From assembly GCF_001684965.1 (NCBI RefSeq), contig NZ_MAYG01000032.1:62001-126000 (forward strand): a stretch of 64,000 nucleotides of DNA. Direction: 5' to 3'. The position numbers and the translations under genes are program-made. Shown piece by piece: positions 2,691-58,755 of this stretch (within the stretch, counting starts at the first letter, position 1; each line of letters opens with the position of its first letter). This stretch comes from Chryseobacterium arthrosphaerae. Its GTDB lineage: Bacteria; Bacteroidota; Bacteroidia; Flavobacteriales; Weeksellaceae. Below the pieces are notes generated by a model. It had not been told where the DNA came from, did not search any database, and saw only the letters and a program-made list of their open reading frames with translations.

Positions 2691-3242
2691 ATGGAAGAAT
2701 ACATTGGAATTGTCAAATTATTTGCAGGAAATTTCGCACCAAGAGGATGGATGTTCTGTGACGGAAGTTTACTAAGTATTGCACAAAACAGTGCTTTATT
2801 CTCAATCTTAGGAACCACTTACGGTGGGGACGGAAGAACTACGTTTGCTCTGCCTAATCTGAAAGGGCGTATGGCATTAGGCGCCGGAACTGTAAACTCC
2901 AGCGAAAATTATCCTTTGGGAATAGTTTCGGGAACGACTCAAAACACACTTTTAGCATCAAATCTCCCAAGTATTGGAGGAGGTTTTCAATTGAAAGTAG
3001 CGAATAAAAATGCAAACACATCCACTCCCAGCGCCGCAGTATCTATTGCGATCACAGGAACACAGGTTGGAAGGGATTTCAATGTTGTCCCAAGCTTTGT
3101 GAATAATGCCAATCCTGATACGGCTATCAACGGCCAGAGTATTTCATTTGTAGGTCAGAATTTACCCGTGAATAATATGCCTCCTTACCTTGGGCTCAAT
3201 TATATCATCTGTGTTGAAGGTATTTATCCTCCACGCAGCTAA
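2691..3242 (+). CDS. Phage tail-collar domain protein (microcystin-dependent protein family)
   Basis: The 183-residue protein begins EEYIGIVKLFAGNFAPRGW, followed by CDGSLLSIAQNSALFSILGTTYGGDGRTTFALPNLKGRM. This is the hallmark of the tail-collar domain (PF07484 family) found both in phage tail fibres and in free-standing bacterial microcystin-dependent protein homologues. The C-terminus, MPPYLGLNYIICVEGIYPP, is also typical. No signal peptide is present and no other phage gene lies nearby, so this is probably a chromosomal stand-alone member rather than prophage debris. Such genes often occur in small tandem sets; only one copy is present here. The ATG at 2691 follows an A-rich stretch. The function of the family is not settled. 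Confidence 0.9.
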   Translation: MEEYIGIVKLFAGNFAPRGWMFCDGSLLSIAQNSALFSILGTTYGGDGRTTFALPNLKGRMALGAGTVNSSENYPLGIVSGTTQNTLLASNLPSIGGGFQLKVANKNANTSTPSAAVSIAITGTQVGRDFNVVPSFVNNANPDTAINGQSISFVGQNLPVNNMPPYLGLNYIICVEGIYPPRS

Positions 3243-33005: not shown

Positions 33006-33166
33006 CTAATTTTTTGTAAATTTAATAATTGAACAGTTTTTGCGATAAGCTAATCGATTAAATGATTAAATAATTGATGGCATTAAGAAACTGAGCCTGA
33101 AAATTTAGTTTCTTGATGTTTTTAGGAAAATTAAACCGGAACATATCATTACAAAAATATAAAAAT

Positions 33167-35761
33167 ATGAACTTAAACCAATATACTGTAAAATCACAAG
33201 AAGCCATCCAGGCAGCACAACAGGTTGCCATGGAACTCGGCAACCAAAGTATTGAACCTCAACACCTACTTGAAGGTATCTTTCAGGTAGATGAAAATAT
33301 ATCACCTTTCTTACTTAAAAAATCTGAAGCAGATGCCAACCTGGTGAGAGAGCGTAACCGTGAAAGCCTGGAAAAACTCCCTAAAGTACAGGGAGGGAAC
33401 ATCTACCTTTCACAATCCGCCAACAAAGTTTTGCTGGACGCACCCAATATTGCCAAAAAAATGGGCGATGAATATGTAACGATTGAACATTTATGGCTAT
33501 CCCTTTTGGAGACAGGTTCTGAAGTTTCCAAAATGCTGAAAGATATGGGCGTAACCAAAAGCTTACTGGAGGGAGCAATTAAAGAATTAAGAAAAGGGAG
33601 CAAAGCCACTTCTGCAAGCTCTGAAGAGACTTACCAATCCCTGAATAAATATGCTAAAAACTTCAATGAATTAGCAGCGGAAGGAAAACTGGATCCTGTG
33701 ATCGGACGTGATGAAGAGATCAGAAGGGTTTTGCAGATTCTTTCCCGAAGAACAAAAAACAACCCGATCCTCATTGGTGAACCGGGTGTAGGTAAAACAG
33801 CAATTGCTGAAGGAATTGCCCACAGAATCATCAGCGGTGACGTTCCTGAAAATCTGATGGATAAAACTTTATACTCATTGGATATGGGAGCACTGATCGC
33901 CGGCGCCAAATACAAAGGTGAATTTGAAGAGCGTCTGAAATCTGTAGTCAACGAAGTGATTAAATCAGACGGGCAGATCATCCTGTTCATCGATGAGATC
34001 CACACATTGGTAGGTGCCGGTGGCGGCGAAGGCGCCATGGATGCTGCCAACATTCTGAAACCGGCTTTGGCAAGAGGTGAGCTGAGAGCCATCGGAGCCA
34101 CAACGCTGAATGAGTATCAGAAGTATTTTGAAAAGGATAAAGCATTAGAAAGACGTTTCCAGAAGGTAATGGTAGAAGAGCCGGATACGGAGTCTGCAAT
34201 TTCCATTCTTCGTGGGATCAAAGATAAATATGAAGCTCACCATAAGGTAAGAATCAAAGATGAAGCGATTATTGCTGCTGTAGAAATGTCCCAGCGATAT
34301 ATTTCTGACCGTTTTTTACCGGATAAGGCGATTGACCTTATTGATGAGGCTTCTGCCAAACTGAGAATGGAGATCAACTCCAAGCCGGAAGAACTGGATG
34401 TTTTAGACAGAAGACTGATGCAGCTGGAAATTGAACTGGCAGCAATCTCAAGGGAGGGTAACCAGACAAAAATCGACCATTTAAAAGAAGATATTGCTAA
34501 AATTTCTGAAGAGAGAAATGAAATCAATGCCAAATGGCTGAAAGAAAAACAAAAAAGTGAAGATCTTACCCAGATCAAAAAAGATATTGAATCTCTGAAA
34601 TTAGAGGCAGAAAGAGCTTCCAGAGCCGGAGATTATGCAAAGGTAGCGGAGATCCAATATGGAAAACTCCGTGAAAAAGAAGACGAGCTTGCCAAAGTGG
34701 AACTGGAAATGCAGAACCACCAGAATGAGCTGATCAAGGAAGAAGTAACCGCAGAAAATATATCCGAAGTTATTGCTAAATGGACAGGCATTCCTGTTAC
34801 CAAGTTATTGCAATCAGAAAGAGATAAACTGTTGAATCTGGAGTCTGAGCTCCATCACAGAGTGGTAGGACAGGATGAAGCCATTGAAGCCGTAGCGGAT
34901 GCTATCCGAAGAAACAGAGCCGGGCTGAGCGATGATAAGAAACCTATCGGATCTTTCTTATTCCTCGGAACAACCGGAGTCGGAAAAACCGAGCTTGCCA
35001 AAGCACTTGCAGAATTCCTGTTTGATGATGAAAATAATATGACAAGGATTGATATGAGTGAATATCAGGAACGCCACAGTGTTTCCAGGCTGGTAGGTGC
35101 GCCTCCGGGATACGTGGGATATGATGAAGGCGGGCAGCTTACTGAAGCTGTGAGAAGAAGACCTTATTCGGTTGTACTTCTGGATGAGATTGAAAAAGCG
35201 CATCCTGATGTTTTCAATACATTACTGCAGGTTTTGGATGACGGACGTCTGACTGACAACAAGGGGCGTGTGGTGAATTTCAAAAATTCAATCATCATCA
35301 TGACTTCGAATTTAGGATCGCATCTGATTCAGGAGAATTTTGAAAATCTTACCGAGCAAAACCAGGATGAGATTGTGGAAAAAACCAAAGAAGAGGTTTT
35401 TGATCTTCTGAAACAGACTTTACGTCCTGAATTCCTGAACAGGATTGATGAGATCGTATTGTTCCAGCCTTTAAGAAAAAAAGAAATCGGAAAAATCGTT
35501 CAGTATCAGTTGAGAGGATTCAATGATATGTTAGCAAAACGGAATATCGTGATGACATTTACCCAGGATGCCGTAGATTATCTGATGGATAAAGGTTATG
35601 ATCCGGCTTTCGGGGCAAGACCTTTAAAAAGAGTGATCCAGCAGGAAGTGCTGAACAAGCTTTCTAAAGAAATCCTTGCCGGAAAAGTGAACGACGGTGA
35701 CAGAATTACACTGGATTACTTCGTTGAAACAGGCCTGGTATTCAGACCTACCGAACAATAA
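33167..35761 (+). CDS. clpB: ClpB, ATP-dependent disaggregase
   Basis: The 864-residue protein is a class I AAA+ disaggregase. It has an N-terminal Clp-N double repeat (about 1-145), AAA1 with GEPGVGKT (204-211), a coiled-coil middle domain (about 405-525), and AAA2 with GTTGVGKT (601-608) and the C-terminal D2 small domain. It dissolves heat-damaged protein aggregates together with the DnaK system. The ATG at 33167 gives MNLNQYTVKSQEAIQAAQQ, the normal family N-terminus; the frame is open further upstream without family similarity. It is monocistronic with a strong terminator. Confidence 0.97.
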   Translation: MNLNQYTVKSQEAIQAAQQVAMELGNQSIEPQHLLEGIFQVDENISPFLLKKSEADANLVRERNRESLEKLPKVQGGNIYLSQSANKVLLDAPNIAKKMGDEYVTIEHLWLSLLETGSEVSKMLKDMGVTKSLLEGAIKELRKGSKATSASSEETYQSLNKYAKNFNELAAEGKLDPVIGRDEEIRRVLQILSRRTKNNPILIGEPGVGKTAIAEGIAHRIISGDVPENLMDKTLYSLDMGALIAGAKYKGEFEERLKSVVNEVIKSDGQIILFIDEIHTLVGAGGGEGAMDAANILKPALARGELRAIGATTLNEYQKYFEKDKALERRFQKVMVEEPDTESAISILRGIKDKYEAHHKVRIKDEAIIAAVEMSQRYISDRFLPDKAIDLIDEASAKLRMEINSKPEELDVLDRRLMQLEIELAAISREGNQTKIDHLKEDIAKISEERNEINAKWLKEKQKSEDLTQIKKDIESLKLEAERASRAGDYAKVAEIQYGKLREKEDELAKVELEMQNHQNELIKEEVTAENISEVIAKWTGIPVTKLLQSERDKLLNLESELHHRVVGQDEAIEAVADAIRRNRAGLSDDKKPIGSFLFLGTTGVGKTELAKALAEFLFDDENNMTRIDMSEYQERHSVSRLVGAPPGYVGYDEGGQLTEAVRRRPYSVVLLDEIEKAHPDVFNTLLQVLDDGRLTDNKGRVVNFKNSIIIMTSNLGSHLIQENFENLTEQNQDEIVEKTKEEVFDLLKQTLRPEFLNRIDEIVLFQPLRKKEIGKIVQYQLRGFNDMLAKRNIVMTFTQDAVDYLMDKGYDPAFGARPLKRVIQQEVLNKLSKEILAGKVNDGDRITLDYFVETGLVFRPTEQ

Positions 35762-40104: not shown

Positions 40105-41115
40105 ATGAAAAAAATCTTATTTGGAACGCTTATGCTTGGTTTAATGACAGCCTGTAACAGTGACAATGTGAATAATCAGAATGAAGAATCCACAGATACT
40201 TCTGTTCCGGCTGCAGGAGCTGCCTCTCTGAGCAGAAGCTGTCTTTCTGAGGAGATAAGACAGGAAGCTTTACAGAACAGTCCGGAACTGAGACAGAGAT
40301 TTGCCGAACTGGAAGCCAATACCCAAAAATTCTCCGATGAAATACAACTGGGAAAAGTTCTTACAGACGGTACTGTTGAAATTCCTGTAGTGGTAAATGT
40401 TTTATACAGCAATGCTGCCGAAAATATTTCTGACGCAAGAATTGCAGAACAAATTGAAGTATTGAATGCTGATTACAGCGGCACCAATACAGACATCACA
40501 AAAGTTCCTTCAGAATTCCAGCCTGTAAAAGCCGGAGATGTAAAAGTAAAATTCAGACTGGCCAATACCGTAAGAAAGTCCACAACCACTACAAGCTGGG
40601 TAAAAGACACCATGAAAAAATCAGCTAACGGCGGAATAGATGCTACCAGCCCGGCCAATTATCTTAATATATGGATAGTGGGTAAAGTAGTAAGCAGTGA
40701 CGGAAGAACCATTCTTGGATACGCCACCTTCCCTGAGTCTGCCGGATTATGGAATGACGGAGTTGTAATTCCTGCCCCTTATTTTGGAAAAACAGGAGCC
40801 GCAGCCAACTTCAACCTGGGAAGAACAGCAACCCATGAGGTAGGACACTATCTTAATCTAAGACATATATGGGGGGATGCAAAATGTGGTGATGACCTGG
40901 TAGCTGATACCCCAACACAAACCTCAGAAAATTACGATACCCCTACTTACCCGCTTTACAATCGTTGTAACGGGAAAAACAGATCCGTAATGTTTATGAA
41001 TTATATGGATTATGTAAACGACGCAGCTATGTTTATGTTTACAGCCGGACAAAAAACAAGAATGCAGTCTGTAGTAGCTTCTAACGGTGCCAGATCCGGA
41101 TTAAGAGAATACTAA
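40105..41115 (+). CDS. M43 family zinc metalloprotease lipoprotein 1
   Basis: This is a pappalysin/cytophagalysin-type metalloprotease of 336 residues. A lipoprotein signal ends at Cys17 (GLMTACNSDN). The zinc site is HEVGH (244-248) with His254, extended as HEVGHYLNLRHIWG. C-terminal M43 features are CGDDLVADTP and the Met-turn region FMNYMDY. No sorting domain is present, so it is a membrane-anchored lipoprotein, possibly on the cell surface given the acidic residues after Cys. It is the first of three tandem paralogues and is closest to copy 3. Confidence 0.92.
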   Translation: MKKILFGTLMLGLMTACNSDNVNNQNEESTDTSVPAAGAASLSRSCLSEEIRQEALQNSPELRQRFAELEANTQKFSDEIQLGKVLTDGTVEIPVVVNVLYSNAAENISDARIAEQIEVLNADYSGTNTDITKVPSEFQPVKAGDVKVKFRLANTVRKSTTTTSWVKDTMKKSANGGIDATSPANYLNIWIVGKVVSSDGRTILGYATFPESAGLWNDGVVIPAPYFGKTGAAANFNLGRTATHEVGHYLNLRHIWGDAKCGDDLVADTPTQTSENYDTPTYPLYNRCNGKNRSVMFMNYMDYVNDAAMFMFTAGQKTRMQSVVASNGARSGLREY

Positions 41116-41138
41116 GCCCATAACCTTTAAAATATTTT

Positions 41139-41172
41139 AAATCTATCTCGGTTTCTGAGATAGATTTTTTTT
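41139..41172 (+). terminator. Terminator of M43 gene 1
   Basis: AAATCTATCTC (41139-41149) pairs perfectly with GAGATAGATTT (41157-41167), followed by further T residues. Nearly the same hairpin follows the other two protease genes. Confidence 0.9.
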
Positions 41173-41503
41173 ATCCTTTTACGCCTGTTAAATCTCAGAA
41201 AATCAGCAAAAACAACAATAGAATGATAATATTATTATAAAAACATTAAAAAGAAGAATAAACCATGACATTCAGACCTTTTGTTTTGCTTAAAAAATAG
41301 TTTTCTGATTGAAATTATAGTAAAAAACATTCTACTAATTAAACAAAAAACAAAATTATTTACATTTAAAAATACACTTAACAGTGAAATACAACTAAAA
41401 ATCTATAAAATTGATTAAAATTCAAAATATAATCAATTAATATAAAATATAATCAATTAAAACACTGATTAAATAAGAATAATTTAAATAAAATGTAAAA
41501 TAA
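41173..41503. other. AT-rich spacer before M43 gene 2
   Basis: This stretch has no ORF or RNA gene that I can support. After a short TTTTACGCC-containing segment that recurs after copy 3, it becomes almost pure A/T, with repeated AATCAATTAA words (around 41430-41460). It matches the leader of copy 1 in its last 100 bases. Confidence 0.55.
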
Positions 41504-41535
41504 TTTGTATATCAATTTTAAATAATATAATTTCA
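41504..41535 (+). promoter_or_regulatory. Promoter of M43 protease gene 2
   Basis: TTTG (41504-41507), 20 bases, TAATTTCA (41528-41535), 26 bases before the ATG. Sequence and spacing are nearly identical to the promoter of copy 1. Confidence 0.6.
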
Positions 41536-41561
41536 CATCCTCAAATTCAAAATATAGTGAT

Positions 41562-42578
41562 ATGAAAAAATTCATGTTTGGAGCCCTGATTCTGGGCTTA
41601 CTGTCGGCCTGTAATACCGACAGCCTTACCAATCAAAATGAAACCCCTATGAACCAGGATGAGGTTCCTGCAGGAAGCGCTGCGAAAAGAAGCTGTCTTT
41701 CAGAAGAAATAAGAGAGAAAATGCTGCAGAAAAACCCTGCCCTGAGACAAAAAATGAATGAAATTGAAGTCGGAGCCGAGAGATATGCCAATAACCTTGC
41801 ACTAGGCAAAGTTCTGGCAGATGGAACCGTAGAGATCCCGGTTGTTTTTAATGTAATCTACAACACTGCAACCCAGAATGTTTCTGATGCAAGAATCGCA
41901 GAACAGATCGCTGTTCTGAATGCTGATTACGGCGGCACCAACTCCGATGTTACTAAGATCCCTTCAGCATTTCAGCCCTCAGCAGCAGGTGATGTAAAAA
42001 TCCGTTTCAAACTGGTGGCGACCAACCGGAAGCAAAGCTCAAAAACAGGCTGGCGATCTGATCTTGAAGAAATGAAAAAAGCCAGTACAGGAGGGATTAC
42101 AGCTACTGATGTAACCAAAAACATGAATATCTGGGTAGTCAACTCAATACTTGACGAAAATAATCAGCCGGGGACCTTAGGGTATGCTTATTATCCTGAA
42201 CATGCAGGACAATGGTATGACGGTCTTGTAATTGGCTACAACTATATCGGGAAAACAGGAGCTTCTGCCCCATTCAATCTTGGAAGAACAGTAACGCATG
42301 AAGTAGGACATTACCTGAATCTTCCACACCTTTGGGGATCAAGCGATGCAGGATGCCAGACAGATTACTCTAATGACACACCGCTTTCTCCCGGCCCTAA
42401 CTATGGAACTCCAACTTATCCCCTTAACAGATCCTGCGGAGGCGTAAGCCGTTCTCAGATGTTTATGAACTATATGGATTATGTAGATGATAAAGCCATG
42501 TTCATGTTCTCTGCCAACCAGAAAACAAGAATGCAGGCTGTAGTTTCAGCATCTGGCCCAAGATCCGGTTTAAGATAA
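41562..42578 (+). CDS. M43 family zinc metalloprotease lipoprotein 2
   Basis: The 338-residue protein has a lipobox ending at Cys17 (GLLSACNTDS). The zinc motif is HEVGHYLNLPHLWG, and DAGCQTDYSNDTP and FMNYMDY follow. It is the most diverged of the three: the specificity region differs (SSKTGWRSDLEEMKKASTGG) and Pro replaces Arg in the zinc motif. A conserved promoter and terminator suggest separate transcription. It is probably a cell-envelope protease with a substrate range different from copies 1 and 3. Confidence 0.92.
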   Translation: MKKFMFGALILGLLSACNTDSLTNQNETPMNQDEVPAGSAAKRSCLSEEIREKMLQKNPALRQKMNEIEVGAERYANNLALGKVLADGTVEIPVVFNVIYNTATQNVSDARIAEQIAVLNADYGGTNSDVTKIPSAFQPSAAGDVKIRFKLVATNRKQSSKTGWRSDLEEMKKASTGGITATDVTKNMNIWVVNSILDENNQPGTLGYAYYPEHAGQWYDGLVIGYNYIGKTGASAPFNLGRTVTHEVGHYLNLPHLWGSSDAGCQTDYSNDTPLSPGPNYGTPTYPLNRSCGGVSRSQMFMNYMDYVDDKAMFMFSANQKTRMQAVVSASGPRSGLR

Positions 42579-42609
42579 TCACCATCTTCATTAACAATAA
42601 AAACATTTA

Positions 42610-42640
42610 AAATCTATCTCTATCAGGGATAGATTTTTTT
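42610..42640 (+). terminator. Terminator of M43 gene 2
   Basis: AAATCTATCTC (42610-42620), loop TATCA, GGGATAGATTT (42626-42636) and further T residues; the stem has 11 pairs including one G-U. Confidence 0.85.
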
Positions 42641-42989
42641 CAGGTCCATAGTGAACGTATCATAACGCATATTTTATTGGGATCAGGTTCAAAAACCGGG
42701 GAACACATGATCCATTTTATGACAAAACAAAAATCACATCTATCCTGATCTTCATTTCTATTAAAAATATTCTATATATTTAATAAAAAATAAAATTATT
42801 TACATTTAAAAACAAACTTTAATTTGAAATCCATCAACTTTAAATTAAATTAATTAAAATTCAAAACAAATATAAATACAGTGAATTATACTCAAATAAA
42901 ACGTAATTAAATTAATAATTACAAATATAATTTGTAAATAAAGTAAAAAGTACATAAATTAGTTTTCTCAAAAATTCAAAATAATGATT
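42641..42989. other. AT-rich spacer before M43 gene 3
   Basis: About 350 bases without an ORF or RNA gene that I can support. The last 200 bases are very AT-rich but diverged from the leaders of copies 1 and 2. A TAGTTTTC box (42958-42965) is a possible -7 element 24 bases before the start. Confidence 0.45.
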
Positions 42990-43994
42990 ATGAAAAAACT
43001 ATTTTTTGGAGCACTTATGCTCGGCGTAATGTCTGCCTGTAACAGCGACAACATTAATAATCAAAGTGAAGCTCCGGCTGATGAAACTGCCTTTTCCGCT
43101 GGTATAGCCCAGAGAGGATGTGCTTCTGAAGAAATACGTCAGGAAGCTTTAAAAAACAGCCCTGAACTCAGACAAAGGTTCGCAGCCCTGGAAAACAATA
43201 CAGAAAAATTCAGTAACGATATCAAACTCGGAAGAGTGCTTGCTGACGGAACCGTGGAAATCCCTGTAGTTGTCAATGTCATCTACAAAACAACAGCAGA
43301 AAATGTTTCCGATTCAAGGATTGCAGAGCAGATTGCTGTTTTAAATGCCGATTACTCCGGTACAAACAGTGATGTCAGCAAAATTCCTTCGGAATTTCAG
43401 TCTGTAAGCTCCGGTGATACGAAGGTAAAGTTCAGATTGGTAAACACCATCAGAAAATCGACCTCCAAAACAAGCTGGTCTACGAATGACGATATGAAAA
43501 AGGCATCGAAAGGAGGAATTAATGCTACCAATCCTACAAATTATCTGAACATCTGGGTGGTAGGCAAAATGACCAGCCAGGGAAGAACAATCCTGGGATA
43601 CGCTACATTCCCTGAATCTGCCGGATTATCCAATGACGGTGTTGTAATTGCCGCACCATTTTTTGGCAAAACAGGCGCATCTTCTCCTTTCAACTTAGGA
43701 AGAACAGCGACTCATGAAGTAGGGCATTACCTGAATCTAAGACACATCTGGGGAGATGCCAATTGCGGAAATGACCAGGTAAGCGACACCCCTACCCAGA
43801 CAACGGCTAATTACGGAAAACCTACTTATCCTCTTTATAATACCTGCGGTGGTGTCAACAGATCTGTGATGTTCATGAATTATATGGATTATGTAGATGA
43901 CGGAGCCATGTTTATGTTCTCTGCCGGCCAAAAAACAAGAATGCAGGCTGTAGTAGCTTCTACCGGTGCCAGATCCGGATTAAGAGTATATTAA
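42990..43994 (+). CDS. M43 family zinc metalloprotease lipoprotein 3
   Basis: This is the third tandem paralogue, 334 residues from the ATG at 42990 (an ATG two codons earlier is possible). The lipobox is GVMSACNSDN. The zinc motif HEVGHYLNLRHIWG, then NDQVSDTP and FMNYMDY, matches copy 1, and most of the mature sequence is shared with copy 1. The closest relation of copies 1 and 3, with copy 2 between them, implies more than one duplication or a conversion event. Confidence 0.92.
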   Translation: MKKLFFGALMLGVMSACNSDNINNQSEAPADETAFSAGIAQRGCASEEIRQEALKNSPELRQRFAALENNTEKFSNDIKLGRVLADGTVEIPVVVNVIYKTTAENVSDSRIAEQIAVLNADYSGTNSDVSKIPSEFQSVSSGDTKVKFRLVNTIRKSTSKTSWSTNDDMKKASKGGINATNPTNYLNIWVVGKMTSQGRTILGYATFPESAGLSNDGVVIAAPFFGKTGASSPFNLGRTATHEVGHYLNLRHIWGDANCGNDQVSDTPTQTTANYGKPTYPLYNTCGGVNRSVMFMNYMDYVDDGAMFMFSAGQKTRMQAVVASTGARSGLRVY

Positions 43995-52102: not shown

Positions 52103-52930
52103 TTATAGGGAAAGATTCACAATAACCGGGAAATGGTCTGACGGATAAAGAAGGTTTTCTCTTCTGTCATTGATATGCCTGTGAGATCTTATGGTAAATC
52201 CTTTTGTGAAAATATAATCGATTCTGTCTTTTGGAATTTCATTCACATTGAAAGCCGTAAAGGTTCCTACCGGACCGTAATGTTTGGTTTCTGAGTGATA
52301 GAAAGTATCTTTCATATTTTTGGAAAGTATTTTAATCGGTTCGGAATCATCGGTCAGGTTAAAGTCACCGCTCAACGTTACCGGAAGATTTTTTGGATTA
52401 AGCTCTTTGATCTTTTTAAGGATCAGTTCTGAAGATTTTACCCTTGCCACATTTCCCACATGATCGAAATGAAGATTCATGGCCAGGAATTCTTTTTTTG
52501 ATTTTTTATCTTTAAAAACCGCATAGGTACAGATTCTGTTCAGTGCTGCATCCCATCCTTTTGAAGGTTTCTCCGGAGTTTCGGACAGCCAGAATGTTCC
52601 TGATTTTACCACATCAAGCCTGCCGGTATCATAAAAAATAGCAGAAAATTCCCCCTGTTCTTTCCCGTCATCTCTTCCTACGCCAATATAGTTATAATTT
52701 TTCAGCCCGGTTTTGAGGTCTTTCATCTGCTCCGGCAATGCTTCCTGCACGCCGAAATAATCAGGATGATAATAGGTCAGCAGGTCAGCAACGTCCTGCT
52801 TTCTTTGCGGCCAGGCATTTTCTTTATCCGATTCAACATTCAGCCTGATGTTGAAGCTCATTACGGTGAGGTCCTGCGAAAATCCCAATACTGAAAGCAT
52901 CAGGAGCATCATTGAAAATCTGAAATTCAT
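52103..52930 (-). CDS. Exported endonuclease/exonuclease/phosphatase family protein
   Basis: The 275-residue protein has a signal peptide (MNFRFSMMLLMLSVLGFSQ). The EEP fold motifs are visible: MSFNIRLN with the metal-binding Asn, FGVQEALPEQ with the metal-binding Glu, LSGDFNLTDDSEP and the C-terminal YPSDHFPVIVNL. It could cleave nucleic acids, phosphoesters or sphingolipid-like substrates outside the cytoplasm; the motifs do not distinguish these. It has no T9SS domain. It converges with the response regulator gene with no room for a separate terminator. Confidence 0.9.
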   Translation of the reverse strand: MNFRFSMMLLMLSVLGFSQDLTVMSFNIRLNVESDKENAWPQRKQDVADLLTYYHPDYFGVQEALPEQMKDLKTGLKNYNYIGVGRDDGKEQGEFSAIFYDTGRLDVVKSGTFWLSETPEKPSKGWDAALNRICTYAVFKDKKSKKEFLAMNLHFDHVGNVARVKSSELILKKIKELNPKNLPVTLSGDFNLTDDSEPIKILSKNMKDTFYHSETKHYGPVGTFTAFNVNEIPKDRIDYIFTKGFTIRSHRHINDRRENLLYPSDHFPVIVNLSL

Positions 52931-52997
52931 ACGCTTATTTTATCAATAAGAGACAAAAATAAAACTTATCTGTGACAGGGAAGCCTTACTGATATGA

Positions 52998-53207
52998 TTA
53001 TATTGTTAAATTATTCTGATCTTCTTCTACCGATAGGAAGTAATCCTGAAATCCGTCAGCTGAAATTGGCTGTTCACACTCCAGTTTCATAACTCCGATG
53101 GCTGTATAATGAGCAGCAAGTCTGATATGTCTGCTTTTGAGAAGGATTTTCAGTTTTTCCAGATTGATCTCTTTTTTTAAAACTGCCAGATAAGTGATCA
53201 TATTCAT
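52998..53207 (-). CDS. Small protein resembling a subtilisin propeptide/inhibitor (I9-like), 69 aa
   Basis: It starts inside the subtilase stop codon (ATGA at 53204-53207) and is the last gene of a five-gene operon. The pattern YLAVLKKEINLEKLKILLKS...HYTAIGVMKLE...FLSVEEDQ has the strand-helix-strand-strand-helix-strand rhythm of I9 propeptides, including a final V-E-E-D like their VxSVEPD end. Free-standing I9 proteins are known as subtilisin inhibitors or chaperones. The match is by eye and weak. No signal peptide is present, so it would act in the cytoplasm like its partner. Confidence 0.6.
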   Translation of the reverse strand: MNMITYLAVLKKEINLEKLKILLKSRHIRLAAHYTAIGVMKLECEQPISADGFQDYFLSVEEDQNNLTI

Positions 53208-54460
53208 ATTTGTATTAGTCCGTTTCCTATGTCTCTATATTTAATTCCCTCAATGGGTCTGGCTTTATTTTCAATAAGTGCCCAGATCTCTTTTGCTGAT
53301 GAACCGGAAAACTGTTCCATATATAAAGCAGCAAGTCCTGAAACATGCGGTGCAGCCATACTGGTACCGCTCATAGCGTAGTAAAAATAATTTTTATTCT
53401 TTGCATTTTTGGGATAAGCACTCACAATGTCTACGCCGGGTGCACATACATTGATATTTCCTCCTGTGGAAGGATTAAGCCCTGCATTTGAAAATTTAGC
53501 AACCTTCATCTGCATATCAATCGCTGCCACTGCCATAATCGATTTTGAATTTGCCGGCATTGAAACCGGTTGCGGAACCTGCGGTCTGCTGCTGTCATTA
53601 CCTGCCGCCGCTATAATAAGGCAGTTATTTTCCAAAGCTCTTTCCCCTATGGTTTCAAAAAGGATGGAAGGCTGATCATTGAGTCTCACCGGGGATGCGA
53701 GTGAAAGGGATAATATCCTGAACTTTTTTGTAATAGCCCAGTCTATAGCATCAATCACGCTACTGGTAGTACCTCTTCCGCTATCGGAGAGTACTTTGGC
53801 GATCTTCAGATTACAGCCGCCTGCAATTCCGTATCGTATATTCTTATCATTTCTGGTATTTCCTGTTGCAATGCCTGCGCAGTGTGTTCCGTGGCCATTG
53901 GGATCTCTGTTCCAGTCTTCTCCATCTATGAAAGATTTACCTTCAATTTCCCTGGATGAAAAATCCGGGTGGGAAACTTCAAGCCCTGTATCCAGAATAC
54001 AAACATCGACTCCTTTTCCTGTATACAAAGCATTTTCAAGACCAATTGCTTTTAATCCCCATTCCATTTCAACCGGTGTTTTCTGAGGCAGAGGTTTGCC
54101 GGCCATGTATTTTTCAAGCTCTGAAATTTTTTCTGTAAGCCCTGCTGACTGTTTTTTAAGTTCACTGATGAGCTGCCATTCATCTGCAGGGAAAAACTCC
54201 CGTTCTTTTTCATAATAAATGACAGGATTTGATTCGTTATCCACCGCACTCTTCAATTGCTCTTCATCCCCAGTTTCTACTACCAGAACGCCAAGATTTT
54301 TGTACAAAACACCATTATCCTTATTAATGATTTCATAAGAACGGTTGTCACTGGAGAGAAATTCAGAGGAAGTAATACTCACCTCCAGCTCTTTCTCAAC
54401 TTTTTTGATTGCGGTTTTCTGCTGATCTTCCAGCAGGACAATATATCTTCCGGTTTCCAT
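53204..54460 (-). CDS. Subtilisin-like S8 peptidase without signal peptide
   Basis: The 418-residue protein has the catalytic triad Asp157 (VCILDTGLEVSHPDF), His190 (DPNGHGTHCAG) and Ser367 (SGTSMAAPHVSG), plus the oxyanion Asn in AAAGNDSS. About 90 N-terminal residues (YIVLLEDQ...NPVIYYEKEREF) look like an I9-type prodomain and are followed by a short coiled linker. There is no signal peptide or sorting domain, so it is probably intracellular or released by another route. It is fourth in an operon with a DUF2589 protein and two unknowns, and overlaps the small I9-like gene. The target is unknown. Confidence 0.9.
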   Translation of the reverse strand: METGRYIVLLEDQQKTAIKKVEKELEVSITSSEFLSSDNRSYEIINKDNGVLYKNLGVLVVETGDEEQLKSAVDNESNPVIYYEKEREFFPADEWQLISELKKQSAGLTEKISELEKYMAGKPLPQKTPVEMEWGLKAIGLENALYTGKGVDVCILDTGLEVSHPDFSSREIEGKSFIDGEDWNRDPNGHGTHCAGIATGNTRNDKNIRYGIAGGCNLKIAKVLSDSGRGTTSSVIDAIDWAITKKFRILSLSLASPVRLNDQPSILFETIGERALENNCLIIAAAGNDSSRPQVPQPVSMPANSKSIMAVAAIDMQMKVAKFSNAGLNPSTGGNINVCAPGVDIVSAYPKNAKNKNYFYYAMSGTSMAAPHVSGLAALYMEQFSGSSAKEIWALIENKARPIEGIKYRDIGNGLIQI

Positions 54461-54474
54461 AACGATCGTTTTTT

Positions 54475-55053
54475 TTAAATTAACTTCAGAAATACCTTTT
54501 CCAGAATAAGGAAAATATCTTCCGGAATCACTGTCAGCCTGAGCTTCTTATTCACTCCCGAGATGGCTGTATTCTGTGCGATCAGAGAAGTCCAGAAACT
54601 TTCAATCTTTATAACAGAATTCAGCTCCTTCAGTTTTTCATCATCCAAAATACCGTTCTGGTATAAGGAAACAATGATCCCTGAAACAAGCTCTTCAGCA
54701 TCTTCCAGCTTTTTATTTTCCTTCGCATATATTTCCATCAGAATATCATAAATGTCTTCTATCCCATTGAATGAAAATCCCCAGAGAAGCTCACGTCTAC
54801 CGGTGTTTATTTTTTCCATTTTTATAGGATTAAAGCCTCTTTTAACCGTCGCAATCCTATTCATGATTTTCAGAACTTCAGATTCGTGGCTGGTGTTCCC
54901 TTTTGTTTTGAAATACTCCAGGGTTTCATTTAAGAAAATATCAAAGCGGGAATCAAAGTCAAAGGATTTTGACAGGTATAAAGCCTGCACTTCATTGAAA
55001 TCTTCCAGAAGCTCCTTCAGTTTCTGCACTGTATGATGAATAAGTTCCTGCAT
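54475..55053 (-). CDS. Hypothetical helical protein of the DUF2589/subtilase operon, 192 aa
   Basis: This is an all-helical, acidic, cytoplasmic-looking protein without a recognised family. Features include KLKELLEDFNEVQALYLSKSFDFDSRFDIF near the N-terminus and a hydrophobic C-terminal helix (IPEDIFLILEKVFLKLI). Its start codon overlaps the stop of the gene upstream by one base (TAATG at 55051-55055), and 14 bases separate it from the subtilase gene. Tight coupling implies that it works with its neighbours. Confidence 0.75.
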   Translation of the reverse strand: MQELIHHTVQKLKELLEDFNEVQALYLSKSFDFDSRFDIFLNETLEYFKTKGNTSHESEVLKIMNRIATVKRGFNPIKMEKINTGRRELLWGFSFNGIEDIYDILMEIYAKENKKLEDAEELVSGIIVSLYQNGILDDEKLKELNSVIKIESFWTSLIAQNTAISGVNKKLRLTVIPEDIFLILEKVFLKLI

Positions 55054-55751
55054 TACTCAAAAGTTATCTGTTCTATTTCCTTACCGTCTTTATCTTTGTA
55101 TGACACAATCCTTATTCCTTCTTCCTCCATTTCAACATGAAGGTTGATGAATAATTTATCTCTGTCTTCCGCCGCGCTTGTGTTGGGATCAATGTAAATA
55201 TTGTTCAGTTTGGCATTGACCAGCGTATATCTATTGAGTAAAACTTTTGAAAAAATCTCTTTCAGTTCTTCTATTTCATCTTCACCAGTTCCTTCCTGTG
55301 GCCGGAAGATTCCGGAATTAAGAATTTTGATTTTATTTCTGAGATCAAGCTTAAGCACTTCATTGGCGGGAACTTTACCAAACTTCTGATCATTTTTTTC
55401 CAGTCTGCTAAAGAGTGATTTGAATTCTTCAGTCTGGATCTGTCTTTTTGTGATCTCAGGAATATTCAGTTTTTTCTCTTTATTTACGAGACGGATTCTT
55501 TCATTCATTTCTGTAACAAACTGATCCTGATTCAGTTTAAAGTTATACTTGGGTTCCGAATCTATATCTGTAATTTTAATGGGAATATCCATTTTCACAC
55601 AGGGCAGCGCATACCGTGGCACTTTAAAATACTTAAGGTATTCGTGACGGGCATATTCTTTGGCAATAAGAACGGCATTTTCGTCAGCCTTTTTACGAGC
55701 CTGAATTATCTCATTGTTGAGATAATCCAGGTAATCTGATAATTTGATCAT
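55053..55751 (-). CDS. DUF2589-associated hypothetical protein, 232 aa
   Basis: The soluble protein begins IKLSDYLDYLNNEIIQARKKADENAVLIAKEYARHEYLKYFKVPRYALPCVKMDIPI. An N-terminal helix followed by a strand rich in Pro and Val resembles partners of DUF2589 proteins that I have seen elsewhere, but I cannot name the family. A beta-rich C-terminus (LNNIYIDPNT, INLHVEMEEEGIRIV) contains another candidate structural repeat. It lies 15 bases after the DUF2589 gene and overlaps the next gene by one base. Confidence 0.7.
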   Translation of the reverse strand: MIKLSDYLDYLNNEIIQARKKADENAVLIAKEYARHEYLKYFKVPRYALPCVKMDIPIKITDIDSEPKYNFKLNQDQFVTEMNERIRLVNKEKKLNIPEITKRQIQTEEFKSLFSRLEKNDQKFGKVPANEVLKLDLRNKIKILNSGIFRPQEGTGEDEIEELKEIFSKVLLNRYTLVNAKLNNIYIDPNTSAAEDRDKLFINLHVEMEEEGIRIVSYKDKDGKEIEQITFE

Positions 55752-55766
55752 TCTTCGTAAATTTTA

Positions 55767-56654
55767 TTATTGCGAAAGAAGTCCAAGAACTTTTTCAAGA
55801 CCTGCAGGCATTTCGTCATTGGTCGCCCTTACTTTTACGCCAAGGGAATATTCTTTTTCAACCTTGATCCCTGTGCTGGACGATCTTTTGTATGACACAT
55901 CCACTTTGAACTTTACAGGACCAAAGCCACCGGACGCTCCTGCGTTGATCCCGAATTCATCACTTACATCTTTAGTGTATGTTGAATTCAGCTTAACGTT
56001 AAAGTCTACTTCACAGGTTTCAATCCTGAAACTCGGAACATTCAGTAAGGCTACAAAAGGAACGACAATCTCTACCGGATCAGATTTTGTTTTTGGATTG
56101 TCATTGCTTACGGGTTTATCAGGATCGAAGTCCGGATTGGGAATCGTCTTGGTATATTTAAACTCTGCCATTCTCAATTTTTTCGGGCTATTGGCGTTGG
56201 CAGGGTCCGTAAGCTCAAAACCGACTTCATTAATGAAATTCACCGTAGCAATAGAGGCATTAGACTGTGCTTTTACACAAGCATCCAAAGGTCCGCCAAT
56301 AATGGTTGCGAAATCTATACTTCCCAATTCTGCGGCAAAATCTGCACTGGCAGCATCCGAAGTTTTGAAGATTTCTTCATCTGCAGCCATCTTACCAGCT
56401 ATCAGTTTCATAATTTCTGAAGAGGCACCGGAAAAAGATTTTTCCCACTTTTCATCATAATTCTTTTTGAAGTCATCTACAATATTCAACAGCTCCTTGT
56501 TGGTAAGTGTTCCCAATTCGGATACTTCAATTCCGGATACTTTTTCGTAGACTGCAGGGGTAAGCACTTTTTCCACTCCTGATAAAAGATCGATCAACTC
56601 ATTTTTTGTTTTTTTGGCGTGACTTGTTTCAAGCACTGATTTTAATGTTTCCAT
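55767..56654 (-). CDS. DUF2589 domain protein, first gene of a five-gene operon
   Basis: The 295-residue protein carries the DUF2589 signature at about 115-295: DFATIIGGPLDACVKAQS, ATVNFINEVGF, VPFVALLNVPSFRIETCEVDFNVKLNSTY and the C-terminal DEMPAGLEKVLGLLSQ. The first 110 residues form a helical extension (SVLETSHAKKTKNELIDLLSG...). The family is uncharacterised; the repeated beta strands suggest a shell or filament-like subunit, which is only an inference. It leads an operon with two unknowns, a subtilase and a small propeptide-like protein. Confidence 0.85.
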   Translation of the reverse strand: METLKSVLETSHAKKTKNELIDLLSGVEKVLTPAVYEKVSGIEVSELGTLTNKELLNIVDDFKKNYDEKWEKSFSGASSEIMKLIAGKMAADEEIFKTSDAASADFAAELGSIDFATIIGGPLDACVKAQSNASIATVNFINEVGFELTDPANANSPKKLRMAEFKYTKTIPNPDFDPDKPVSNDNPKTKSDPVEIVVPFVALLNVPSFRIETCEVDFNVKLNSTYTKDVSDEFGINAGASGGFGPVKFKVDVSYKRSSSTGIKVEKEYSLGVKVRATNDEMPAGLEKVLGLLSQ

Positions 56655-56685
56655 GTTTTTTTGTTTTTAAATTAATATTGTTCAG

Positions 56686-56693
56686 CAAAATTA
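56686..56693 (-). promoter_or_regulatory. Putative -7 box of the DUF2589 operon
   Basis: On the minus strand TAATTTTG is an exact TANNTTTG match, 32 bases before the start codon. A TTTTG motif lies only 13 bases further upstream, closer than the usual 17-23, so the -33 element is uncertain. Confidence 0.4.
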
Positions 56694-56762
56694 TTTCATT
56701 GCCGTTCAAAAGTTTACAGGAGAACCCCTTCACTTTACCCGGAAAAACACCCTAAAAAACAA

Positions 56763-56789
56763 AAGCCCGAACTGTAGAAGTTCAGGCTT
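56763..56789 (-). terminator. Terminator of the second M1 peptidase gene
   Basis: AAGCCCGAACT (56763-56773) and AGTTCAGGCTT (56779-56789) form an 11-pair stem with one mismatch. On the minus strand it is followed by TTGTTTTTTAG. Confidence 0.75.
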
Positions 56790-56817
56790 GTATTCTGTTG
56801 ATACCAACTCGCAAGTA

Positions 56818-58755
56818 TTACGCCGGTGTCATGCTGTTATTCTTAGGATTGATATCCGGAACTACAGAAGCGGGATCCAGTTTTACCTCATCGATCTCTT
56901 TGCCGGAATCTACTTTGAAAGTCCATTCTGTATTTCTCTTCCAGACTTCAACAGGAATTTTCACTGTTTTTGAAGTGCCGTCTTTGAATTTTACCTGTAC
57001 TGTTGTAGGCATTGGAAGCTGTCCAAGGTTTTCAACGGTAATCCGTACTCCGTTTTTGAAGTCTCCGTTAATGTATTTTACATCTTTAACAGCCTGATCA
57101 ATTTTCCATTTATTTAAAAACCATCCTCTCCAGTACCAGTTCAGTTCTTCTCCCGAAACATTTTCCATCGTATGGAAGAAATCCCATGGTGTAGGATGTT
57201 TGAAAGCCCAACGGTTGATATAGGTTCTGAACGCCTTGTCAAATTTTTCAGGTCCGAGAACTGCCTCTCTCAAAACAGCCAGCCCTGCTCCTGGTTTATA
57301 ATAGGCCAGAGCTCCGATGTTTCTTTCCTTCATATTATCAGGCCCTACCATAACGGGCTCCAGATTATCTCCCATCAGAAAACCTCCTGTTTTTGCCAGA
57401 TCTCTTTTTCTGTGATATTCACCTTTATTAAAAGCTTCCGTAGAAAGTCCGTTGATAAAGGTATTGAAACCTTCATCCATCCATGCAAATAATCTTTCGT
57501 TAGAGCCTACGATCATAGGAAACCAGTTGTGCCCGAATTCATGATCCGTTACTCCCCAAAGATCTTCTCCTTTTGAATCCATATGACAGAAAACAATTCC
57601 CGGATACTCCATTCCGCCTTCGTTTCCTGCAACATTGGTAGCTGCCGGATACGTATATTCATACCATTTCTGCGAGTAATGCTCTATCGCTGCTTTTGTA
57701 TATTCTGTAGATCTTCCCCAGGCTTTATCCCCTGCGCTTTCAACGGGATAAGCTGAGATGGCCAATGATTTTTTTCCGCTTGGAAGGTTAATTTTTGCCG
57801 CATCCAGGATAAATCCGGCTGAAGAAGCCCAGGCAAAATCCCTGGTCTGCGTAATTTTAAATTTCCAGGTCTTTGTTCCGGAAGAATTATTTTTCCCGAT
57901 TTCAGATTCAGGACGTATCATCACTGTTTTGTCACTGTTTCTGGCCTGATTCCATCTGCTGACTTCCTCTTTGCTGTAGACTTCCTTTTCATTCAGAAGC
58001 TCTCCGGATGCTACCACATAATGATTGGCCGGCACTGTAATATTGGCTGTAATATTTCCATATTCCAGATAAAATTCTGAAGCTCCCAGATAAGGCAGAG
58101 TGTTCCAGCCCATTACATCATCATATACGCACATTCTCGGATACCACTGTGCCATGGTAAAGATCTTCCCGTTCTTTGTTTCCTGTACTCCCATCCTGTC
58201 TGAACCGTATTCCGGAGAAATAAAAGAATACTCGATGGCGATTCTGGCCACACCTCCTTTTGCTTTCAGCTCTTTAGGCAGGTCTATCTGCATTCTGGTA
58301 TCTGTAATGGTGTATTTTACCGCTTTGCCATCAAGTTTTACTGATTTAATGGTATATCCTCCGTCAAATTCCTCACCGTGCGCTCCGTTTCTGCTTCCTG
58401 AAAGCGGTACGACTCCGTTTCCACGGGAATCTCTGGAAAACAGGTTCTGATCCAGCTGTAACCAAAGAAAACCTAATTGATCGGGGCTGTTATTGGTGTA
58501 AGTGATTTCTGCGGTACCCGTAATTTCTTTTTTATTTTCATTCAGGCTGACGTTCAAATGATAGTCTGCCGAGTTCTGCCAATAGGCATGACCGGGCTGA
58601 CCACTTGCAGAACGGGTTTCTGAACCCATCTGAGGATAAAAGAAAGGTTTGAATGCTTCTACATAATCATATTTCGGAGTTTCCTGTGCATATGCCGGTC
58701 CTGAAAACATCAAAACTGCAACTGCTGAAACAAGGGCTGGAAGTTTGAAATTCAT
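56818..58755 (-). CDS. Exported M1 family metallopeptidase (second copy)
   Basis: The 645-residue protein has a signal peptide ending PAYAQ (about 24 residues). The zinc site is HEFGH in TDHEFGHNWFPMIVG, with the third ligand in WMDEGFNTFIN and the GAMEN-like motif EGGMEYPG. The overall layout matches the M1 enzyme at 45511-47376, including the N-terminal ATGYWQN-type start seen there as YWQNSADYHLN. The catalytic-site flanks differ (HEFGHN against HEIAHT), so substrate range probably differs. It is monocistronic, with terminators on both sides. Confidence 0.92.
   Translation of the reverse strand: MNFKLPALVSAVAVLMFSGPAYAQETPKYDYVEAFKPFFYPQMGSETRSASGQPGHAYWQNSADYHLNVSLNENKKEITGTAEITYTNNSPDQLGFLWLQLDQNLFSRDSRGNGVVPLSGSRNGAHGEEFDGGYTIKSVKLDGKAVKYTITDTRMQIDLPKELKAKGGVARIAIEYSFISPEYGSDRMGVQETKNGKIFTMAQWYPRMCVYDDVMGWNTLPYLGASEFYLEYGNITANITVPANHYVVASGELLNEKEVYSKEEVSRWNQARNSDKTVMIRPESEIGKNNSSGTKTWKFKITQTRDFAWASSAGFILDAAKINLPSGKKSLAISAYPVESAGDKAWGRSTEYTKAAIEHYSQKWYEYTYPAATNVAGNEGGMEYPGIVFCHMDSKGEDLWGVTDHEFGHNWFPMIVGSNERLFAWMDEGFNTFINGLSTEAFNKGEYHRKRDLAKTGGFLMGDNLEPVMVGPDNMKERNIGALAYYKPGAGLAVLREAVLGPEKFDKAFRTYINRWAFKHPTPWDFFHTMENVSGEELNWYWRGWFLNKWKIDQAVKDVKYINGDFKNGVRITVENLGQLPMPTTVQVKFKDGTSKTVKIPVEVWKRNTEWTFKVDSGKEIDEVKLDPASVVPDINPKNNSMTPA

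Follow-up and report, generated by a model that had tools for sequence, protein, structure and literature searches.

A five-gene operon of Chryseobacterium arthrosphaerae joins a recurrent DUF2589 cassette to a predicted subtilase and a propeptide-like small protein

Within a 64,000-nucleotide stretch of the Chryseobacterium arthrosphaerae genome (contig NZ_MAYG01000032.1; the whole stretch is called the window, and positions are counted from its first letter), an operon of five genes has been analysed. In the order of transcription it encodes a DUF2589 protein, two proteins of 232 and 192 residues (p232 and p192), a protease of the S8 (subtilase) family and a small protein of 69 residues. The operon is read here as a three-gene chassis followed by a two-gene payload, a system that would handle a hydrolase, in this case an intracellular protease checked by a propeptide-like partner; this reading is tentative, and its probability is put at about 0.4. 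A sequence-only reading of the same DNA had proposed a single five-gene device, which is recast here as a mobile three-gene chassis carrying a protease-inhibitor payload of the Weeksellaceae. As a set of genes, the system matches no described kind that was found; its function is proposed here. No earlier description of the combination, of which the sequence-only reading also knew none, was found in the open literature searched (5.39 million papers; no preprints, few subscription journals). The terms “DUF2589 domain-containing protein” and “PF11655” were not found there, and the only mention of DUF2589, made in passing, is in the available part of PMC3949148, where the DUF2589-related genes AF0414-AF0417 of Archaeoglobus are up-regulated on lactate. 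The combination is likewise absent among the matches listed for patatin/effector operons, stand-alone propeptides, subtilase defence and I9 conflict systems.

The anatomy of the operon is solid. Five open reading frames (ORFs), each with an ATG start, lie on the minus strand: (i) the DUF2589 gene (55767..56654, 295 residues); (ii) p232 (55053..55751), the second cassette gene; (iii) p192 (54475..55053), the third; (iv) the S8 gene (53204..54460, 418 residues); and (v) the gene of the 69-residue protein (52998..53207), whose start overlaps the S8 stop by 4 bases and whose place beside S8 is conserved. The spacings along transcription are 15, -1, 14 and -4 bases, in agreement with the tight packing noted earlier. 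Only the DUF2589 and S8 proteins exceed a Pfam cut-off; p232, p192 and the 69-residue protein stay below every Pfam cut-off and are matched by neither NCBIfam nor PADLOC. No 19-residue segment of the five proteins is strongly hydrophobic, the largest mean Kyte-Doolittle value being 1.47; by this measure the proteins look neither membrane-bound nor classically exported. All five genes are under purifying selection: the median ratios of nonsynonymous to synonymous substitution (dN/dS), for pairs with a synonymous difference (pS) between 0.1 and 0.6, are 0.046, 0.045, 0.072, 0.052 and 0.19 in operon order, and the 69-residue protein is the fastest evolving.

The five genes are co-inherited in the family Weeksellaceae. 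Matches to p232 were found in 63 of 148 Chryseobacterium genomes, 44 of which hold an orthologue (broken in two, G063 and G046) and 19 only a distant paralogue. The 69-residue protein is present in 45 of the 148, namely in all 44 with the p232 orthologue and in G033, where the locus retains only a 144-residue S8 fragment and the small gene. The order DUF2589, p232, p192, S8 is kept in nine Chryseobacterium loci; the small gene was called in eight of them and recovered by search in the ninth (L176). Close relatives come from Chryseobacterium, and the nearest named relative of p192 is a C. arthrosphaerae protein (98%); among 246 family genomes p192 has 35 real relatives, six from three other genera, after one of 36 matches (G111, E 9.3e-4, 24% identity) was discarded as a non-relative. 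All six loci from other genera carry DUF2589, p232, p192, S8 and then a small ORF of the same kind, which in L181 and L183 was identified from its position and pattern and not from a BLAST match. Most family loci, though not L182, are flanked by a conserved short-chain dehydrogenase/reductase (SDR) gene and/or ClpB, and these flanks point to vertical inheritance with repeated loss in the family. In L179, L180, L181, L183 and L184 the nearby ClpB gene is on the strand opposite to the operon. An operon remnant, an S8 C-terminal fragment with the small gene and no cassette seen, was noted at L172:7798-8451.

Seen beyond the family, DUF2589-p232-p192 proves to be the local form of a cassette whose three genes keep one order in many other bacteria and in archaea. 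The cassette is defined by members of the DUF2589, p232 and p184 families, in this order on one strand, which is also the arrangement in the window. Here p232 scores 98 bits with a profile of the second-gene family built from other taxa, and p192 is a divergent member of the p184 family (35.8 bits, residues 1-187); the window's own proteins are absent as rows from both profiles. A DUF2589 alignment was used to scan named genomes, and the sample comprised the best 80 of the 280 relatives found, fetched by DUF2589 alone; they are the relatives closest to one query, and other DUF2589 subfamilies are arranged otherwise. Counting all ORFs of at least 100 residues, with profiles partly built from the same loci, all three families were found in 73 of the 80 loci and in the same order and strand in 72, at median spacings of 56.5 and 7 bases. 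Only the third family is missing from the remaining seven, five of which are at most about 1 kb from the end of a contig. With just the seed profiles, 71, 65 and 64 ORFs were recovered in 81 loci (L057-L137). Hosts include Bacteroides, Vibrio, Limnobacter, Aquabacterium, Treponema, Planctomycetota and Chloroflexota and, among archaea, Methanothrix, Methanoperedens and Bathyarchaeota (one on a 2.15-Mb contig). A gene order that Methanothrix and Bathyarchaeota share with Vibrio and Bacteroides is presumably kept for a definite function. DUF2589 genes were also found in 28 of 395 genomes across the phylum, sometimes as tandem copies.

The cassette mostly occurs without an adjoining S8 gene. Scattering of the genes in related genomes, named by the sequence-only reading as evidence against a unit, is not seen within the family and is partly seen outside it. 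Of the proposed “one functional unit”, co-inheritance stands (44 of 44 Chryseobacterium genomes and the six loci of other genera), and the single unit gives way to two modules, 3+2.

The S8 gene and its small neighbour form a separate pair whose counterpart exists without the cassette. A class-level search outside the family (247 genomes, E <= 1e-40) yielded four S8 relatives, and in three of them (L168, L169, L171) a small same-strand gene of 76-79 residues then follows. In the fourth, L170, no following small gene of at least 50 residues was seen, and no cassette gene was found in the stretches of any of the four. The small proteins of L168, L169 and L171 align with the 69-residue family along their length at 12-15% identity; a match of the L171 protein to a designed “protein origami” chain (E 1.6e-4) was taken as chance.

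In a quick maximum-likelihood tree of DUF2589, phyla and domains are mixed. The tree contains 85 rows, 84 loci and the window (99 loci were listed, six duplicates were dropped and nine gave no DUF2589 row); support is by the Shimodaira-Hasegawa-like approximate likelihood ratio test (SH-aLRT) only, long branches are flagged and many rows are metagenome-assembled genomes (MAGs). Methanoperedens is grouped with Geobacter (97) and Limnobacter with a Clostridia MAG (96), and Bathyarchaeota fall among relatives from Smithella and Thiodiazotropha (97, enclosing group), which suggests much horizontal transfer. The nine S8-linked rows form one group (99) on a long branch, inside a wider group (95) with patatin-linked, CHAP-linked and two partnerless Bacteroidota rows. 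On this tree a peptidoglycan-binding or M15 partner requires four label changes, three of them forced by supported branches, and S8 requires one.

These results bear on a rival explanation, which takes S8 and the 69-residue protein for a normal intracellular protease and its inhibitor or chaperone and holds that the cassette shares their transcript only for regulation, with no physical coupling. The separate occurrence of pair and cassette is what this explanation would lead one to expect, as are the p192-S8 gaps of 162 and 172 bases in two Chryseobacterium loci. It sits less easily with the complete co-occurrence in Chryseobacterium and the order kept in three other genera, with the single supported long-branch group of S8-linked DUF2589 rows, and with an N-terminal extension that, in seed alignment A1 (14 members), is found only in the two S8-linked DUF2589 members. 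We regard it as possible, though doubtful.

The 295-residue protein is a clear member of DUF2589 (PF11655; 82.8 bits, cut-off 23), itself a family of unknown function. The family profile gives 185 bits over residues 105-294, and the protein consists of a helical extension (about 1-105) and the conserved domain (about 105-295). The extension described by the sequence-only reading is present in the AlphaFold2 (AF2) model, where residues 1-111 are mostly helical with a mean confidence by block of about 50-79; the three patatin-linked Chryseobacterium members in A1 are without it. The whole model has a mean predicted local distance difference test (pLDDT) score of 69.7, and its domain shows a helix (115-145), strands, a long hairpin (214-275, with a poorly modelled tip) and a C-terminal helix (281-294). 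The p232 model (mean pLDDT 77.6) has an N-terminal helix (4-35), a strand (51-70), a helical insert and C-terminal strands. A search of the PDB with these two models of modest confidence (Foldseek, VIA) returned weak rows only and nothing significant, which gives no evidence of a new fold. Comparison of DUF2589 with p232 by hhalign found a 36-column similarity around “xVPxxRIxExxIDF” at a probability of 32%, suggestive of homology, which is not claimed. In the p232 family alignment A5 the last residue is a nearly invariant Glu (majority end LxPE) across phyla, and the C-terminus looks as if it were itself recognised.

The S8 protein is a subtilase by profile (PF00082, 175.6 bits, cut-off 21.8, given for residues 147-400 of the query) and by its intact motifs, DTGL at 157, GHGTH at 189 and GTSMA at 365, which assign the catalytic residues as D157, H190 and S367; protease activity is accordingly a prediction from sequence. 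No signal peptide is visible, as noted earlier. The closest solved relative is PDB 7y6m, an intracellular serine protease (ISP), aligned from residue 127, and further entries of this kind (7xr8, 2x8j) are among the 60 matches listed of 146. The protein resembles the bacterial ISPs in these matches and in having no visible signal peptide, but differs from them in its partners and in the roughly 125-145 residues that precede a catalytic domain beginning near residue 127-147. By eye this N-terminal part, which the sequence-only reading had left unmentioned, runs strand-helix-strand ... strand-helix-strand in a propeptide-like manner, and it has no I9 profile match. Assignment to the type VII mycosins (TIGR03921) was rejected at 144.6 bits, below the equivalog cut-off of 278.75.

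The sequence-only reading had likened the 69-residue protein to a free-standing subtilisin propeptide of the I9 type; membership of I9 is not borne out. The Pfam I9 profile (PF05922) matches nothing in 22 members of the 69-residue family or at the locus in 13 genomes, a PDB search with the family alignment found no propeptide, and hhalign of the S8 N-terminus against the family gives a probability of 3%; a protein search with the 69-residue query returned only three sequences. What is left is a resemblance: the place beside S8, and in alignment A10, by eye, an order of strand, helix, strand pair, helix and strand with a VEED-like end, an order that we take to be that of subtilisin propeptides. 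A separately encoded propeptide-like protein that potently inhibits a subtilase is described for Plasmodium in the available part of the report on SUB1-ProM (PMC6993865), where its gene likewise lies beside subtilase genes. As far as that part of the report goes, SUB1-ProM is eukaryotic and acts in the parasitophorous vacuole (PMC6993865). In contrast, the 69-residue protein is bacterial and apparently cytosolic, its gene overlaps that of the protease, and it is tied to the three-gene cassette.

Hydrolases also adjoin the cassette elsewhere. A distant p232 paralogue occurs at eight fetched Chryseobacterium loci, between a short DUF2589 gene and a gene of 184 residues. By eye a patatin-like gene lies upstream in 8/8 of these loci and an M15-like gene in 7/8, and a Pfam run on some of them confirmed patatin (PF01734) and M15 (PF13539). 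This second, patatin- and M15-linked cassette (L022-L029) belongs to other Chryseobacterium genomes, and two of the eight loci come from genomes, G046 and G128, that hold an S8-type locus as well. Second, paralogue-like p232 matches were also seen in G026 and G117.

In the wider survey of partners, 97 loci were considered (L022-L029, eight of L037-L050, and L057-L137), the S8-type and all other fetched loci being outside it. Sixteen were left out as duplicates, as having little or no cassette by a first ORF filter, or as the viral contig L137; of the 81 entered, seven with fewer than two recognised cassette genes were skipped, leaving 74. Partners were sought in the same-strand run beside the cassette, with a 400-base limit. 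A Pfam-supported hydrolase or peptidoglycan-binding gene adjoins the cassette in 8 of the 74 (L025, L027 and L028 from Chryseobacterium, L041, L048, L067, L081 and L102), the types being patatin with M15_4, CHAP, and PG_binding_1 with or without a VanY-like C-terminus; the curated cut-off is not reached by the peptidoglycan-binding match of L102 or by the VanY matches of L067 and L081. Weaker candidates are L087, with a GH18-like gene (below cut-off, E 0.0016), and L086, with an M15-like gene (E 0.31). A neighbour containing EHEQDH, of which the two proteins scanned have no meaningful Pfam match, is found in L061, L064 and L072, and L060 has a shorter relative of it; DUF261 (weak or by eye) is found in L121 and L122. 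Among 88 near proteins (of 89, one near gene of more than 1,100 residues being excluded), VanY was counted five times, PG_binding_1 four, and Patatin and M15_4 three times each; the 25 families listed, out of 166, for an equal number of far proteins (88) include none of the four, although a single far-gene match could hide beyond that listing. The association with hydrolases is thus recurrent and not universal, since most cassettes have no hydrolase or peptidoglycan-binding partner beside them and 25/74 have no same-strand neighbour whatsoever. A possible second pairing of S8 with the cassette is found in a Methanocellales archaeon (L068:2879-7360), where the same strand carries, 640 bases upstream and hence beyond the 400-base limit, a gene for a 1493-residue subtilase that has all three motifs.

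Some further arrangements were noted. At L050:186-6818 the cassette is followed by a 1398-residue gene that is SpvB/TcdB-like (weak or by eye). A fourth uncharacterised gene of about 240 residues follows the cassette at L084:2636-3358 and L110:2685-3401; its N-terminus recalls p232 by eye, and the L110 protein has no Pfam match. Short DUF2589-like genes in other arrangements, some tandem and some with peptidoglycan-binding or weakly C58-like neighbours, occur in L036, L043, L047, L054 and L055.

Partners of this kind raise the question of a phage-derived lysis or tail module, a very improbable origin on the present evidence. Among PHROG profiles, those of endolysins are matched by two peptidoglycan-binding partners and a protease family by S8 (4e-62); an unnamed viral model matches the DUF2589 model (E 6.6e-5), with a second matching weakly (E 5.9e-3). 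The cassette proteins themselves, however, have no PHROG match below E 0.02, tblastn matches only one of 50,697 phage records, and two IMG/VR scans give one and the same contig, whose neighbours resemble by eye the M15-patatin Chryseobacterium locus. Plasmid records yielded 3 matches in 72,556, all distant DUF2589 genes in other arrangements. A phage origin was rejected, since searches with the cassette proteins turned up next to nothing in PHROGs, phage and plasmid records and IMG/VR.

A defence role, anti-phage or self-killing, in which the protease would be the toxic effector, would fit the mixture of phyla and domains in the DUF2589 tree, which is like that of mobile accessory systems, and the partial PADLOC similarity of S8 to IetS (E 1.2e-13) and to a subtilase model (9e-26). 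PADLOC model-by-protein matches are also somewhat commoner within 4 kb of cassettes, 25 in 139 proteins (of 225 eligible neighbours) against 6 in 88 far proteins, and include Cas8b, Cas7b, MADS and ShosA; these are, however, raw counts, several models may match one protein, the length limits of the two sets are not the same, and both sets contain mad3 and RtcR models and some of the commonest models. The likeness to the IetAS anti-phage system is confined to an S8 protease with a partial match: on the NCBIfam IteS model S8 reaches 22 bits against a cut-off of 900, and the AAA ATPase partner was not found among the five operon proteins, nor was any sensor in the operon. The Weeksellaceae loci, mostly beside the same SDR gene and/or ClpB, suggest a stable chromosomal place. 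Taken together, a defence role is improbable.

For the chassis-and-payload reading, we infer the following mechanism. DUF2589 and p232 would co-assemble into an oligomer, with p192 as a helical adaptor or assembly partner, and the assembly would bind and position the linked hydrolase, in the Weeksellaceae an intracellular subtilase. The 69-residue protein may work on S8 in trans as a subtilisin propeptide would, both helping it to fold and inhibiting it, a role proposed because an active subtilase would attack its own cell. S8 would be held inactive until the assembly or a trigger, such as envelope damage or an attacker, frees it. A more specific version, which we consider unlikely, takes DUF2589-p232-p184 as an undescribed, horizontally exchanged chassis, whose two beta-rich proteins would form an oligomeric ring, tube or pore storing and releasing interchangeable hydrolases (M15, CHAP, patatin, subtilase); the Weeksellaceae version would be armed with a protease and its own lock, the propeptide-like 69-residue protein. 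The payload, a subtilase with a candidate propeptide in trans, can be assayed and so offers a practical entry to the function of the whole DUF2589 cassette family.

Upstream of the operon, a leader (56655..56762, minus strand) presumably carries the promoter. It contains a TAATTTTG box resembling the Bacteroidetes -7 element; no consensus -33 element lies at 17-23 bases, and the full Bacteroidetes-type pattern was not found in the leader. Between the operon and the gene upstream of it, which by eye encodes an M1-type peptidase, lies a terminator-like hairpin (56763..56789, minus strand, a consensus match). The hairpin is the sole terminator-like site in 52880-56840, where shuffles average 3.1. 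Elsewhere in the window, the following were noted by eye: a ClpB-like gene (33113-35761), three tandem, paralogous-looking lipoprotein-like genes of 336-338 residues (40105-43994, plus strand) and a stand-alone protein like phage tail-collar or microcystin-dependent proteins (2691-3242, plus strand).

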